Shown: piece after piece, positions 1,168-6,780 of the stretch | Position numbering within the stretch: the first letter of the stretch is position 1 | Layout of the letters: each line of letters begins with the position of its first letter | NCBI GenBank assembly: GCA_017399685.1 | Contig: JAFQBM010000024.1 | Span: forward strand, 62,001 to 126,000 | Reading direction: 5' to 3' | DNA: 64,000 nt | Source: Lachnospiraceae bacterium | GTDB lineage: Bacteria > Bacillota > Clostridia > Lachnospirales > Lachnospiraceae | Made by a program: the position numbers and the translations under genes | The notes under the pieces: model-generated | Database searches by the model: none | Seen by the model: only the letters and a program-made list of their open reading frames with translations | What the model was told of the DNA's origin: nothing

Positions 1168-1473
1168 ATGATTAAGCATATTATTTTATGGCAGTTAAAG
1201 GATGAATTTGATAAAGCGGAAAAGGAAAAAATAAAATTGGGTATGAAAGAAGGCTTAGAAGGTTTAAAGGGAAAGATTCCGGGTTTAGTGGAAATCCATG
1301 TTCAGACCGAGTCGTTACCTTCTTCCAATGCAGATGTAATGTTAGATTCTGCTTTTGAAAGCGAAGAAGCATTGAAAGCATACGCAATTCATCCGGCACA
1401 TGTAGAAGTTGCGGATAATATGGTAAGACCTTATACAAAATCCCGTTCTTGTCTGGATTTCGAAGCGAAATAA
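1168..1473 (+). CDS. Dabb (stress-responsive A/B barrel) protein
   Basis: 101 residues opening MIKHIILWQLKD, the classic first strand of Dabb dimeric alpha/beta barrel proteins, and ending AIHPAHVEVADNM with the typical histidine-containing helix. The ATG at 1168 is chosen because AAGGAG lies 7-12 bases before it; an in-frame TTG at 1132 has no ribosome binding site. The family has very mixed roles, including stress proteins, polyketide cyclases and aldoxime dehydratase relatives, so no reaction is assigned. It has its own extended -10 promoter and stands about 90 bases before thioredoxin. Confidence 0.8.
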   Translation: MIKHIILWQLKDEFDKAEKEKIKLGMKEGLEGLKGKIPGLVEIHVQTESLPSSNADVMLDSAFESEEALKAYAIHPAHVEVADNMVRPYTKSRSCLDFEAK

Positions 1474-1565
1474 TTGGGAATAAAGACAAGAATTTAAAGT
1501 TCTGTGTGTAAAAGTGATTTTTTGATATTTATGTTAAAAAATAAGTCGAAAGAAGGAGAAGAATT

Positions 1566-1880
1566 ATGTCAGTTCTTAAGATAACAAAGGAAAATTTTGA
1601 AACAGAAGTTATAGAAAATTCTAAGACGGTTTTATTAGATTTTTGGGCGGAATGGTGTCCTCCATGTCGTATGATAGCCCCTGTTCTTGATAAAATTGGA
1701 CAGGAACATGAAGAAATTGTAGTTGGAAAAGTGAATGTGGATGAAGAACGAGGGTTGGCACAAGAGTTTCGGGTTGCTAATATTCCTACTTTGGTGGTAA
1801 TCAAAGATGGTGTGGAAGTGAACCGTTCCGTAGGAGCGATTTCCAGGCAGGAAATATTAGATTTGGTTCAATTATCATAG
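1566..1880 (+). CDS. trxA: Thioredoxin with WCPPC active site
   Basis: 104 residues, the normal size of thioredoxin, with strand-helix order intact, active site WAEWCPPC (Cys31, Cys34) and the cis-proline loop NIPTL. Thioredoxins reduce protein disulfides using thioredoxin reductase, which is not in this window. Classical thioredoxin has WCGPC; the Gly-to-Pro change is normally seen in ResA/TlpA-type proteins and alters redox potential. There is no signal peptide, so it is cytosolic. AGAAGGAG lies 8 bases before the ATG. It may be a special-purpose thioredoxin rather than the housekeeping copy. Confidence 0.9.
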   Translation: MSVLKITKENFETEVIENSKTVLLDFWAEWCPPCRMIAPVLDKIGQEHEEIVVGKVNVDEERGLAQEFRVANIPTLVVIKDGVEVNRSVGAISRQEILDLVQLS

Positions 1881-1973
1881 CATTTTGTTACATGAATGGT
1901 TGGAAGTGCAATATGATATGAATCATTTTGTATTGGAATATGAGGTAAATGAGGGAAAGAAGGGGATACAATT

Positions 1974-2132
1974 ATGACAGAAAAAGAATTTGAAAAGGAA
2001 ATCGAACTTCGTATAGCACAGGTTGAGAATGGAATGCCGGACATAAAGCGAATGCAAAAAAGAGATTATATTGAGGTGGGCGTTATTGTGTTTATCTGCT
2101 TGATAGGAATTATTGCAGGGGCATTTTTATAA
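1974..2132 (+). CDS. 52-residue single-span membrane protein
   Basis: ATG 1974 to TAA 2130-2132, preceded by GAAGGGG. The first 32 residues are charged and probably helical and cytoplasmic; residues 33-52 (EVGVIVFICLIGIIAGAFL) form one membrane helix reaching the C-terminus. It ends 14 bases before the permease-acyltransferase fusion and shares its strand. Small one-helix partners beside transporters are known in other families, so an accessory subunit of the downstream permease is a fair inference. I recognise no family. Confidence 0.7.
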   Translation: MTEKEFEKEIELRIAQVENGMPDIKRMQKRDYIEVGVIVFICLIGIIAGAFL

Positions 2133-2146
2133 GAGGGGAAAAGAAA

Positions 2147-4807
2147 ATGAAGGATACGAATGAAAAGATTAAAAATGAAGTCTACTGTGGCATTTGGCCG
2201 GTTCTTGGAAAAGAACGTACCTATGGATTTTTGGATGCTTTGCTGGTGTTATCCGGTTATTGTATTGCTACATGGAGTTATACCCAGGGTTCCTATCTGG
2301 CAAGTCTGGTAGGATTTAAACAGCTGTTAATTGGTGCCTTTTTAGGCGCCATATTAATGTTGGCCGTTTATCAGCTCCCGGTCATTTTATCCACACGATA
2401 TGGAATTGATATCTGGGTATGGTTACGAACTGTATTTGGTAAAAAAGGTGTTAAGGTAATGACAGTGGTCATTATCCTCATTAATTTTCCTTGGTATGCA
2501 GTTTGTTGCGATTTGTTTGCCTCTTCTATGGAGAATCTGCTGGGTCTGTTTGGAGTTACTCTTCCAGATGGAAGCCATCTTATGCTAGGGCTGCTTTGTG
2601 TTATAGTTGGAACTTTTATTGCATATCGGGGTGTTTCTACTATTACATGGACTACCAGAATTTTGGTGCCATTATTGTTGTTGGTGGGAATTTTAGTAGT
2701 AATTGTAGGGTTTTCTGCTGTACCTGCAGAAGTCATATGGAATTATAAGCCTGAAACTACCACTTATGATAATAATATTACACCATATATCCTGTCCATC
2801 GAAGCAAACTTCGCTTTTGTTATTACTTTGGTAGGAGGCATGGCGGAGATTCCTCGTCTTTGTAAAAGTGAAAAATCAGGTTATTATGCCGGCGTATTAG
2901 GTCAGGGACTGGCAGGTTCTTTCTTCGTTGTAGTAGGTGCGGTTATGGCCATTGCCATGCAGTATGTAACCGGAAAAATGGTGGATGACCCTACTTTGAT
3001 GATGGCCACATTGTCTGTACCGGCGCTTGGATTAACTTCTTTGTTGCTGGTTGCTTTCGCTAATATAGGAACTCAGGCTGTAGGTTCGTATCTTTATGGA
3101 GTTATGTTAAAATCCAGCTTTCGTAAAGCAGATTACCGGCTTTTGGTTATTATTCTTGGAGTTTATGTAGGAGGGCTTTGCGCATGGGGAAAGATTGTAG
3201 AGTATTTTGGCTCATTCCTTACCATTAGTGCCTGTGTATATGCGCCTTTGGCAGCTTTATTGTTTACAGATTTCTTCTTTGTCAGAAAGCAGAGAATTGA
3301 TTTAAAAAGTGCTTATGAAATGGAAGGACATAATGCGTATCAGTATACAAAGGGATTTAATATTGTTGGTCTTTTGTGTCTGGTGGCGGGGTTTTTCATT
3401 TCCCTTGCTATTTACAATCCAGTAACAGGAGAAATACATAATTCTTGGTTGTTTACCTTTACTCCTACAGGCTGTTCTTTTCTTGGAACGGGACTGTTAT
3501 ACTATCTATTGTGTCAGTTACCATGGATACGACGTTATATAAGAAAAGATAAAGAATGGAATCCTGTGGTAAAACCTTTTGACAGAGTAAAAATACCACC
3601 GAAACAAAATTTATTAGCCATGCCTTTTATATGGCTTGGATGTTATCTGATTACGTGGAAGGCAGGATTAAAAATTGTAAAATCAGAAAAACGAGGAATA
3701 AAACCGCCCTTTCTGGTTTTAGGAACTCATCATTCTTTTACGGATTTTTATGTTTCGCCACTGGCATTGTTCCCATATCGGGCAAATTATGTATCAGAAC
3801 TAGAAGGATTTGAGTATTATGGGGAATGGTTATATCGCCAGATAGGATGTCTGGGAACGAGAAAGTTTGTAGATGATTTATCCTTAATTAAGAATATTAA
3901 GAACGTTATGGAACGGAAGGGAATTCTGGTGTTTTATCCGGAAGCCAGGTATGCCAATGTAGGAACCAGTTCAAAACTTCCTATGTCGGTGGCAAAATTG
4001 GTGAAAATGCTAAAGGTTCCTGTGGTTACTTTAAATATGAAGGGAAATTATCTACAATCCCCTATCTGGAATTTAACGAAAAGGAAAGAAGTAAGATTGC
4101 ATACAGAAATGACTTATGCACTGACGAAGCAAGAGGTTAGTGAGCTGTCCGTTGAAGAAATTTATGAAAAGCTCAGTGAATTACTGGCTTACGATGAATA
4201 CGCATGGCAGCGGGAACAAAAAATGGCTGTTACATATAAAAAACGGGCAGAAGGTCTTCATATGCCACTATATCAGTGCAGATGTTGTAAAGTAGAATTT
4301 CAGATGGAGTCGAAGGACAATAAATTGTTCTGCCAGAATTGTGGAGTGGAATATGAAATGGATGAATATGGTACCTTGCGAAGGGAAAATGAAGAACAAT
4401 ATATTCCGGACTGGTATGAGTGGCAACGTAAACAGGTGCAAGCAGAGGTTAATAATCATACTTACTCTTTGGACTGCAAAGTGGAGGTCTATGCCTTGCC
4501 AAATGCGAAAAACTTTATCTTTTGTGGTGTAGGACATTTGATTCATGATTTAGATGGATATCAGTTGACGTTTCGTAATTATCTGACAGGAGATGAGGAA
4601 ACTTTAGTATGGTCTACAGCACAGTGTCTTTCCGTGCATACGGAATATAACTATCGAAACAAGGGACAGTGTATTACATTGTCTACATTGGATGACAGCT
4701 TCTTCCTTTTCCCAGTGGAAGAAGGCTTTAATGCTACAAAAATTCAGTTTGCTACAGAATATATGTACGAATTGCATGAGAAAAAAATAAGAGAGGAAAA
4801 ATTATGA
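2147..4807 (+). CDS. NCS1-type permease fused to PlsC-like acyltransferase with zinc ribbon
   Basis: 886 residues in one uninterrupted frame. Residues 1-460 are a membrane domain of about twelve helices resembling NCS1 purine/cytosine permeases (opening GKERTYGF, then IPRLCKSEKSGYYAG in a loop). Residues 490-690 look like a lysophosphatidate-type acyltransferase: HHSFTD gives the HX4D catalytic pair His528/Asp533, and YPEAR at 597-601 matches the acceptor-binding FPEGTR motif. Cys711/714 and Cys729/732 form a zinc ribbon, followed by about 150 residues I cannot place. NCS1 proteins import nucleobases or related small solutes with cations; PlsC enzymes acylate lysophosphatidate at the membrane. 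I know of no standard protein with this order. Both halves retain family signatures, so it is not obviously decayed. It overlaps the next gene by ATGA, implying translational coupling. Confidence 0.8.
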   Translation: MKDTNEKIKNEVYCGIWPVLGKERTYGFLDALLVLSGYCIATWSYTQGSYLASLVGFKQLLIGAFLGAILMLAVYQLPVILSTRYGIDIWVWLRTVFGKKGVKVMTVVIILINFPWYAVCCDLFASSMENLLGLFGVTLPDGSHLMLGLLCVIVGTFIAYRGVSTITWTTRILVPLLLLVGILVVIVGFSAVPAEVIWNYKPETTTYDNNITPYILSIEANFAFVITLVGGMAEIPRLCKSEKSGYYAGVLGQGLAGSFFVVVGAVMAIAMQYVTGKMVDDPTLMMATLSVPALGLTSLLLVAFANIGTQAVGSYLYGVMLKSSFRKADYRLLVIILGVYVGGLCAWGKIVEYFGSFLTISACVYAPLAALLFTDFFFVRKQRIDLKSAYEMEGHNAYQYTKGFNIVGLLCLVAGFFISLAIYNPVTGEIHNSWLFTFTPTGCSFLGTGLLYYLLCQLPWIRRYIRKDKEWNPVVKPFDRVKIPPKQNLLAMPFIWLGCYLITWKAGLKIVKSEKRGIKPPFLVLGTHHSFTDFYVSPLALFPYRANYVSELEGFEYYGEWLYRQIGCLGTRKFVDDLSLIKNIKNVMERKGILVFYPEARYANVGTSSKLPMSVAKLVKMLKVPVVTLNMKGNYLQSPIWNLTKRKEVRLHTEMTYALTKQEVSELSVEEIYEKLSELLAYDEYAWQREQKMAVTYKKRAEGLHMPLYQCRCCKVEFQMESKDNKLFCQNCGVEYEMDEYGTLRRENEEQYIPDWYEWQRKQVQAEVNNHTYSLDCKVEVYALPNAKNFIFCGVGHLIHDLDGYQLTFRNYLTGDEETLVWSTAQCLSVHTEYNYRNKGQCITLSTLDDSFFLFPVEEGFNATKIQFATEYMYELHEKKIREEKL

Positions 4808-6780
4808 GTAGTCAAAAAGAAAAGAAAATCCGACGATTACATAGAAAAAATATCTGGCCTTCTATGTTGACCTTATTTTTATTTATTTCAGCCTTTGTTT
4901 TTATCATTTGCAGTATGTTTATTCTGTCTTTGGTAAATCTGGCAACGAATAAACTGGAATATACGACTGAGAATGCCAAAATGGTAGCACAAATCATAGA
5001 AGAAGAAAATGTGGGAAGCAATGAAGAATTGATTCAGCTTGTGAAAGAAATGCAAAGGATTTTGCCCAATGTGCAGGAAGTTTGTATTAGCAACGAAGAA
5101 AATGAAGTTATTATAAAATCTGGAAGTTCAGAACCCAAGGTAGAGAATGAATTAGTAGTAACAGGCTTGGATTGTAGGATTTATTTGTTAGAGCAAAGTG
5201 ATAATACTTTATATGCACAAAATGGAGAGGTGAAATTTGATACAGAAAAAATGATTGATGTATTTCTAGCACCGGATGATGAAGTGTATGATATTGATAA
5301 GCCACTGCTTTATCTGAGTTTTTGGATTGCGTCTCCTATGGATGAAAATCATCAGAATGTTTTTGTGAAAAGTGAAATAGCAGTCAAAGAATCGGAAGTA
5401 GCAAGTATTGGTATATTTGCTATAGCAATCATTGGATTAGTAATTGGTTTTGCCATTTACTATATTGTTTTCACTATAGGTTTAATAAGGGATCAAAGAA
5501 GACTAACACAGTTATTATATCTGAATCCGGTTACTGGTGGAAAGAATTGGACATATCTGAAAGTAAAAGGGGAAAAATTTATCCGAAAGAGTTTTCGGAA
5601 CAAAATAAAATATGCCCTGATACACATTAGAATGAACAAGTACCAGAGTTTTTGTACCTGTTATGGTGCGAAAGAGGGAACGGATTTGCTGGAATTAATT
5701 TATCAGGAATTGCAGAGTAAAATCAGCAAAAATGAAGTTGCGGTTCATTATGCCAGAGCAGATTATGCGATGTTATTAAGTTATGATTCTAAGGAAGGAT
5801 TAGAGCAAAGACTAAGTAATATCGTAGCTGGTATTGGAGCAGCAAGACAGGGACGAAGGCTTGATTTTTGTGCCGGAATTTATGAAATAAATAACGGTAA
5901 AATGGATATGGATGCCATGTATAATAATGCCAGTATTGCCAGGTCTGCTTTACATCCTGAGGGTGAAGAATGGATTGGATGGTACAGTCAGGAAATGCAG
6001 AAACAACAGTTGTGGGAAAGAAAAGTGGAAGATACAATGGAAGAAGCTTTACAACGTAAAGAATTCCAGGTATATCTTCAACCTAAATATTCTTCCAGAG
6101 AAGAAAAATTATCAGGAGCTGAGGCTTTGGTTCGCTGGATTAGTCCGGAGGAAGGCTTTGTACCACCTAATCGTTTTATTCCTATCTTTGAAAATAATGG
6201 TTTTATTTTAAAGTTAGATGACTACATGATTTCCGAAGTAGCAAAACAGCAGGCAGAATGGATTGGGGAAGGAAGAAAGGTAGTTCCTATTTCTGTAAAT
6301 GTGTCCAGAGCTCATTTTACCAAAGATGATTTGGCAGAGCATATTTGCGGGTTGGTGGATGCTTATCAGGTACCACATGAAGTCATTGAATTAGAACTGA
6401 CAGAAAGTGCATTCTTTGAGGATAAAGAGGTATTATTGGAAACGGTAAGAAAGTTAAGAGAGTATGGTTTTGCTGTTTCTATGGATGATTTTGGAGCAGG
6501 TTATTCTTCTTTGAATTCCTTAAAAGAACTGCCATTGGATGTGATTAAGCTGGATGCAGAATTCTTCCGTGGTATAGAGGATACAGAGAAAGGAAAAATC
6601 ATTGTAAACGAAGCCATTTGTCTGGCAAAGAGACTAGATATGAAAATTGTAGCTGAAGGAATCGAAACAAAAGAACAGGTGGATTTTCTGGCAGAACAGG
6701 GATGTGATTTGATTCAAGGATATTATTTTGCAAAACCAATGCCGATACAAGAGTTTGAAAAAAAGGCGTTCAATATTTAA
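4804..6780 (+). CDS. Membrane EAL phosphodiesterase with degenerate GGDEF domain
   Basis: 658 residues. A membrane helix at about 20-45, an extracytoplasmic sensor-like segment at 46-195 and a second helix at about 200-225 precede a GGDEF fold whose signature is lost: ARADY at 317-321 stands where GGDEF should be. The C-terminal EAL domain keeps EALVRW at 440-445, NVSRAHF, ELELTES, DDFGAGYSSL from 561, the KLD strand, AEGIET and QGYYFAKP, so c-di-GMP hydrolysis should be possible. The GGDEF part is probably a regulatory or dimer domain. The start codon overlaps the stop of the permease-acyltransferase gene, tying c-di-GMP turnover to that protein. No terminator follows directly. Confidence 0.92.
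   Translation: MSSQKEKKIRRLHRKNIWPSMLTLFLFISAFVFIICSMFILSLVNLATNKLEYTTENAKMVAQIIEEENVGSNEELIQLVKEMQRILPNVQEVCISNEENEVIIKSGSSEPKVENELVVTGLDCRIYLLEQSDNTLYAQNGEVKFDTEKMIDVFLAPDDEVYDIDKPLLYLSFWIASPMDENHQNVFVKSEIAVKESEVASIGIFAIAIIGLVIGFAIYYIVFTIGLIRDQRRLTQLLYLNPVTGGKNWTYLKVKGEKFIRKSFRNKIKYALIHIRMNKYQSFCTCYGAKEGTDLLELIYQELQSKISKNEVAVHYARADYAMLLSYDSKEGLEQRLSNIVAGIGAARQGRRLDFCAGIYEINNGKMDMDAMYNNASIARSALHPEGEEWIGWYSQEMQKQQLWERKVEDTMEEALQRKEFQVYLQPKYSSREEKLSGAEALVRWISPEEGFVPPNRFIPIFENNGFILKLDDYMISEVAKQQAEWIGEGRKVVPISVNVSRAHFTKDDLAEHICGLVDAYQVPHEVIELELTESAFFEDKEVLLETVRKLREYGFAVSMDDFGAGYSSLNSLKELPLDVIKLDAEFFRGIEDTEKGKIIVNEAICLAKRLDMKIVAEGIETKEQVDFLAEQGCDLIQGYYFAKPMPIQEFEKKAFNI

Follow-up and report, generated by a model that had tools for sequence, protein, structure and literature searches.

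Why should a single reading frame join a permease of the NCS1 type to an acyltransferase of the PlsC type, and what might such a protein do? The question is raised by a gene in the window (the whole 64,000-nucleotide stretch of a Lachnospiraceae genome that was analysed), the 886-residue product of which carries, in order, an NCS1 permease, a PlsC-type acyltransferase and a four-cysteine ribbon, and ends in a predicted PH-like domain (Table 1). An earlier note, made from the DNA letters, had described the first three of these as parts of one unbroken 886-codon frame, and the comparisons below agree with it on the frame and on all three parts. The C-terminal PH-like domain is an addition to its list.

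Table 1. Parts of the fusion gene, with positions counted from the first nucleotide of the window
Feature	Position	Strand	Remarks
Whole gene, 886 codons plus stop	2147..4807	+	single frame
NCS1-type permease domain	2201..3418	+	Pfam range, residues 19-424; PF02133
Glu219-Ala220-Asn221, sixth span	2801..2809	+	acid (and Asn) conserved; Glu and Asn common to the permease-only sister
Basic linker, residues 457-490	3515..3616	+	9 K/R, 3 D/E
PlsC-fold acyltransferase, residues 492-690	3620..4216	+	fold match
HX4D (His528, Asp533)	3728..3745	+	86/86 fusions; 35/35 wider-family rows
YPEAR, residues 597-601	3935..3949	+	motif III position; EARY, not EGTR
Four-cysteine ribbon, Cys711-Cys732	4277..4342	+	86/86 fusions; 35/35 wider-family rows
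Predicted PH-like domain, about residues 770-886	4454..4804	+	model

A database search returned 151 relatives, and among the 120 listed, 111 span at least 98% of the query. Alignments were built first from 31 and later from 86 of these 120 homologues, and gene arrangement was surveyed at the best 80 of 130 relatives. Within that survey the two halves form a single-gene fusion at 58 loci and an adjacent two-gene pair at 18; the other four are unclassifiable, one because of an in-frame stop (L069) and three because they are short or cut by contig ends (L080, L085, L086). The L069 fusion (1285-4011) is full length apart from this stop, which lies in its acyltransferase half. The earlier note had taken two separate genes in related genomes as a case against the join. 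Such genes do occur, but all 18 pairs are adjacent and on the same strand, with a spacing of about -38 to +81 bp when the earliest possible starts are used (-4 bp in L091 and L098), which argues for a functional pair rather than an artefact. Three further two-gene pairs (L106, L107, L122) lie beyond the 80. Fused or not, the permease and acyltransferase halves stay together, in 76 of the 80 loci and across families.

Hosts of the fusion are mainly Bacillota, many of them clostridia-type bacteria; carriers include Acetivibrio mesophilus, [Clostridium] asparagiforme and Pilibacter termitis, and Pseudobacteroides cellulosolvens has the two-gene form. The two-gene form is also held by two Treponema sp. 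spirochaete MAGs (L075, L088), perhaps as a result of gene transfer or mis-binning. For a tree, seven of the 80 loci were omitted (L042, L066, L069, L080, L085, L086, L092) and the remainder thinned to 48 rows; 27 of the 29 fusions fall in one clade (SH-aLRT 95), and the fused and split states need three changes. The direction of change was likely from separate pair to fusion, a polarity that is short of certain because the outgroup branch is very long.

The first half had been described as a permease fold, and it scores 55.6 bits against PF02133 (curated cut-off, 23.5). Its predicted structure has the Mhp1/CodB fold, with Foldseek E values of 1e-12 to 6e-11 and target-based TM-scores of 0.74-0.87. 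The same protein reaches 54.8 bits against TIGR00800, the NCBIfam model of the NCS1 subfamily, for which the cut-off is 353.1. By Pfam and by fold the fusion permease belongs to the NCS1 family, but a score so far under the subfamily cut-off sets it apart from the standard NCS1 symporters. It also differs from Mhp1 and CodB in its C-terminal acyltransferase and in the sixth-span acid, Glu219. In a profile alignment with Mhp1, Gly-Gly-Trp stands opposite Glu219-Ala220-Asn221, and the sixth-span Trp of Mhp1 aligns with Asn221. In the eighth span, Ala305 and Thr309 do not vary across the 86 aligned fusions; we assume for these positions the Na-site roles of their Mhp1 counterparts, and likewise take the roles of Mhp1 residues as a guide to the substrate site. 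Trp43, Tyr45, Trp116, Tyr117, Glu219, Asn221, Asn306, Thr309 and Gln310 are conserved both in the 86 fusions and in the 120 listed members of a permease-only sister group, although conservation in the sisters says little by itself because those listed are so alike (85-100% identical to the query). The acid and aromatic residues around the expected site would fit a cationic head group. Small molecules are the usual cargo of this fold's pocket, and a lipid-transporting NCS1 protein is not known to us; both points count against a lipid cargo here. Several of the proteins related to the fusion carry the NCBI name "cytosine permease".

The second half adopts a PlsC fold in the predicted structure and scores 20.8 bits in one scan and 25.3 in another against PF01553 (cut-off, 23). 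The earlier note had reported an intact HX4D pair, a YPEAR motif and a cysteine ribbon. His528, Asp533 and all four cysteines (Cys711, Cys714, Cys729, Cys732) are invariant in the 86 aligned fusions, so that the loss of the His-Asp pair it had named as a refuting case is not seen among them. The YPEAR motif fares less uniformly: Ala600 and Arg601 are likewise invariant, but Glu599 is replaced in nine sequences (77 E, 7 S, 2 D). If the PlsC motif names are carried over to this position, as we assume, motif III reads EARY; its Arg stands at +2, the position it has in E. coli Aas (EGRI), whereas E. coli PlsC (EGTR) has it at +3; EARY for EGTR also separates the fusion from the PlsC of T. maritima (5kym), as do its ribbon, PH-like domain and permease. 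Among 107 sequences of the wider acyltransferase family, the motif III Arg is at +2 in 43, at +3 in 36, at both in 4 and at neither in 19, and 5 are without the motif. In profile comparisons the second half scores 65.0 against the acyltransferase of Aas (probability 95.9%) and 27.3 against E. coli PlsC (6.8%). Two PlsC-like proteins of the same genome score 55.7 and 58.0, with probabilities of 93-94%, and the overall profile consequently appears only slightly closer to Aas than to them. These two, the genome's other PF01553 proteins, could serve ordinary phosphatidate synthesis, so the fusion need not be the housekeeping enzyme.

The acyltransferase is one member of a large family, most of which is unnamed. 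A search with the second half at E 1e-15 has matches in 31 of 295 genomes belonging to the order. In ACYLTRANSFERASE family members without a permease, HX4D and the four cysteines persist at identities as low as about 20%, and they are invariant in 21/21 and 35/35 rows of two alignments. Six members of 616-679 aa (L215-L220) carry an N-terminal VTT domain (PF09335, 6/6 by Pfam), a model that we equate with the DedA family. A DcuC-type carrier gene comes next after this VTT-acyltransferase fusion in four of the six. Lipid scramblases and flippases are found among VTT/DedA proteins, according to the part of the literature drawn on here (PMC11980842). Five other relatives (P0316, P0317, P0318, P0324, P0331) have a C-terminal acyl carrier protein (ACP) domain (PF00550), which makes acyl-ACP a likely donor. 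No further transporter fusion is present among the 120 listed of 257 matches.

Gene neighbours show one further association with membrane proteins. Standalone members were grouped into 66 clusters (70% identity), and in 24 of these a polytopic protein, its spans counted by a simple hydropathy window, is encoded on the same strand within 60 bp; the same holds for 16 of 132 control clusters without split acyltransferase genes (p 1e-4); with the NCS1 pairs removed the count is 22 of 64 (p 3e-4), and 42 of the 66 have no such neighbour. One set of homologous membrane proteins accounts for 17 of the 24 positive clusters. These proteins, which we call GltS-like since PF03616 matches three of the nine sent to Pfam (two over the cut-off), number 22 in a single BLAST group, and 21 of them lie downstream on the same strand. 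They are found beside distant acyltransferase members (L006, L018, L151, L152, L183, L190-L193, L196, L197, L230, L238, L240, L241, L245-L247, L249, L250 and L252, and L156). Without the GltS-like group the excess of transporter neighbours is gone (7/49 versus 16/132). Neighbours of the MFS, BrnQ, MATE and MgtE types may therefore be there by chance and, at about the control rate, were dropped as evidence.

A carrier suited to a cationic head, together with an acyltransferase family tied to scramblase-type domains and to ACP, suggests the logic of LplT-Aas. In that system LplT flips lysophospholipid inward and Aas, with acyl-ACP as donor, re-acylates it; transporter and PlsC-type acyltransferase are encoded by adjacent genes in many species and by one ORF in some, and the system is stated to be known only from Gram-negatives (PMC11416262). 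We read the fusion, by analogy, as working in the same manner: a Gram-positive counterpart built on an unrelated transporter. A lipid precursor with a cationic head would enter through the permease and reach the cytoplasmic face, where the attached acyltransferase would add a fatty acid to the imported molecule, probably from acyl-ACP, so that transport and acylation would act on one and the same molecule. We give this one-piece uptake-and-acylation machine a probability of a little under 0.4. The acyltransferase is presumably cytoplasmic, which the basic linker fits; by the positive-inside rule, basic loops mark that side of the membrane. As to the precursor, our guess is a lysophospholipid (lyso-PC or lyso-PE) or a glycerophosphodiester (GPC or GPE).

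The parallel with LplT-Aas extends to the Arg at motif III +2, found in both, and to gene arrangement, in that lplT and aas overlap in E. coli K-12. The transporter there is of the MFS type, whereas it is of the NCS1 type here, and Pfam and NCBIfam scans of the fusion reveal no acyl-ACP synthetase domain like that of Aas; the fusion is therefore not a member of that system. It further differs in its four-cysteine ribbon and PH-like domain, in its mainly Bacillota hosts, and in being known from sequence alone. MprF offers a further parallel, with a lipid synthase and a flippase united in a single polypeptide, and fusions of DedA domains to MprF soluble domains are mentioned in the same account (PMC11980842), but MprF performs aminoacylation and outward movement, and no MprF-related domain was seen in the fusion. 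Similar in proposed logic, and also in Gram-positives, is the scavenging suggested for mitis group streptococci, in which GPC or lyso-PC would be taken up and then acylated to PC; the transporters and acyltransferases are termed unidentified there, and in its passages on this pathway the article draws no link to the present family (PMC6805115). The literature searched, outside which most subscription journals lie, yielded no paper on the fusion or its combined parts and none on Gram-positive lysophospholipid transporters.

Uptake and acylation of lyso-PC and GPC are reported for Gram-positives, and the family offers isolates in which the responsible transporter could be sought. If our reading holds, a large and mostly unnamed acyltransferase family gains a function, and "cytosine permease" is a misleading name for several such proteins. 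A bolder version, which we regard as doubtful, is that this is the first NCS1 (LeuT-fold) importer of lysophospholipids or glycerophosphodiesters and the missing Gram-positive equivalent of LplT-Aas, with the PlsC, four-cysteine and PH-like parts forming a plug-in salvage module that has been joined to NCS1, VTT/DedA and GltS-like partners, each giving a machine for uptake and acylation.

The permease-only sister counts in favour of a cationic head in our reading and bears also on a different one. There, the permease would import choline or another small quaternary amine or amino alcohol, and the acyltransferase would be an independent lipid enzyme that the fusion keeps at the membrane, the two serving one pathway but acting on two molecules. 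The sister is 478 aa long, has 45% identity to the first half of the fusion protein, and shares with it the acid and aromatic residues of the site. In two genomes from different families (G022 and G575), on which its link to choline rests, it lies directly upstream of a nucleotidyltransferase/choline-kinase-like gene. Genes of this type occur in 9 of 196 genomes searched. They adjoin a BCCT or EamA transporter in five (the window's own genome, G382, G408, G349 and G466) and methylamine or B12-binding genes in G341 and G077; neither was recognised beside the gene in G438 and G400. As the sister occupies a spot held elsewhere by BCCT or EamA transporters, it is itself likely to be an importer of choline or another quaternary amine. 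Yet in the window's genome a BCCT transporter, along with a LicD gene, already accompanies the choline-kinase-type gene found there, and small-amine import leaves the VTT fusions of the same acyltransferase family unexplained. We consider this alternative rather unlikely, if worth keeping in view.

The lic-type locus in question (L126, 6775-14633 on contig C36) encodes a BCCT protein (PF02028), a protein with PF00483 and PF01633, and LicD (PF04991), and between these genes lies one for a protein in which choline-binding-like repeats were noted by eye. Separately, G382 and G408 each combine fusions of the acyltransferase to NCS1 and to VTT with a choline-kinase-type gene that has BCCT beside it.

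The earlier note had left the role of the permease fold between a sensor, a flippase-like partner and a supplier of substrate, and the comparative evidence favours the latter two. As a sensor, the permease fold would let a ligand or the state of the membrane switch the acyltransferase without net transport; varied membrane partners and a predicted PH-like domain would fit regulation of this sort, but residues of the permease core, Ala305 and Thr309 among them, are invariant, as would be expected of a working carrier, and we hold the sensor role to be improbable. Poorer still are the prospects of a scheme in which the acyltransferase tunes the transporter joined to it by acting on the local membrane or on a protein, and the cargo is never acylated. 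The family does adjoin transporters whose cargo is usually not lipid, such as the GltS-like proteins, but the VTT/DedA fusions fit a lipid cargo better, and we know of no precedent for an acyltransferase that tunes a transporter attached to it. A frameshift, an assembly join or a chance fusion has a negligible claim, for although some relatives have two separate genes, it is refuted by the fused homologues, which recur across many assemblies and include one in the complete chromosome of [Clostridium] asparagiforme DSM 15981.

Uptake and acylation of one lipid precursor thus remains our preferred reading, and the genes around the fusion do not name the precursor. No conserved operon partner was found: the commonest neighbour occurs at 13 of 82 loci and is confined to a block of close relatives, so gene context gave no substrate name. 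Downstream of the nearest fusions checked (L019, L020, L021 and L023) a GGDEF-EAL gene is absent; in the window such a gene (PF00990, PF00563) runs from 4804 to 6780 on the forward strand, and its first 4 bp coincide with the end of the fusion gene, stop codon included.
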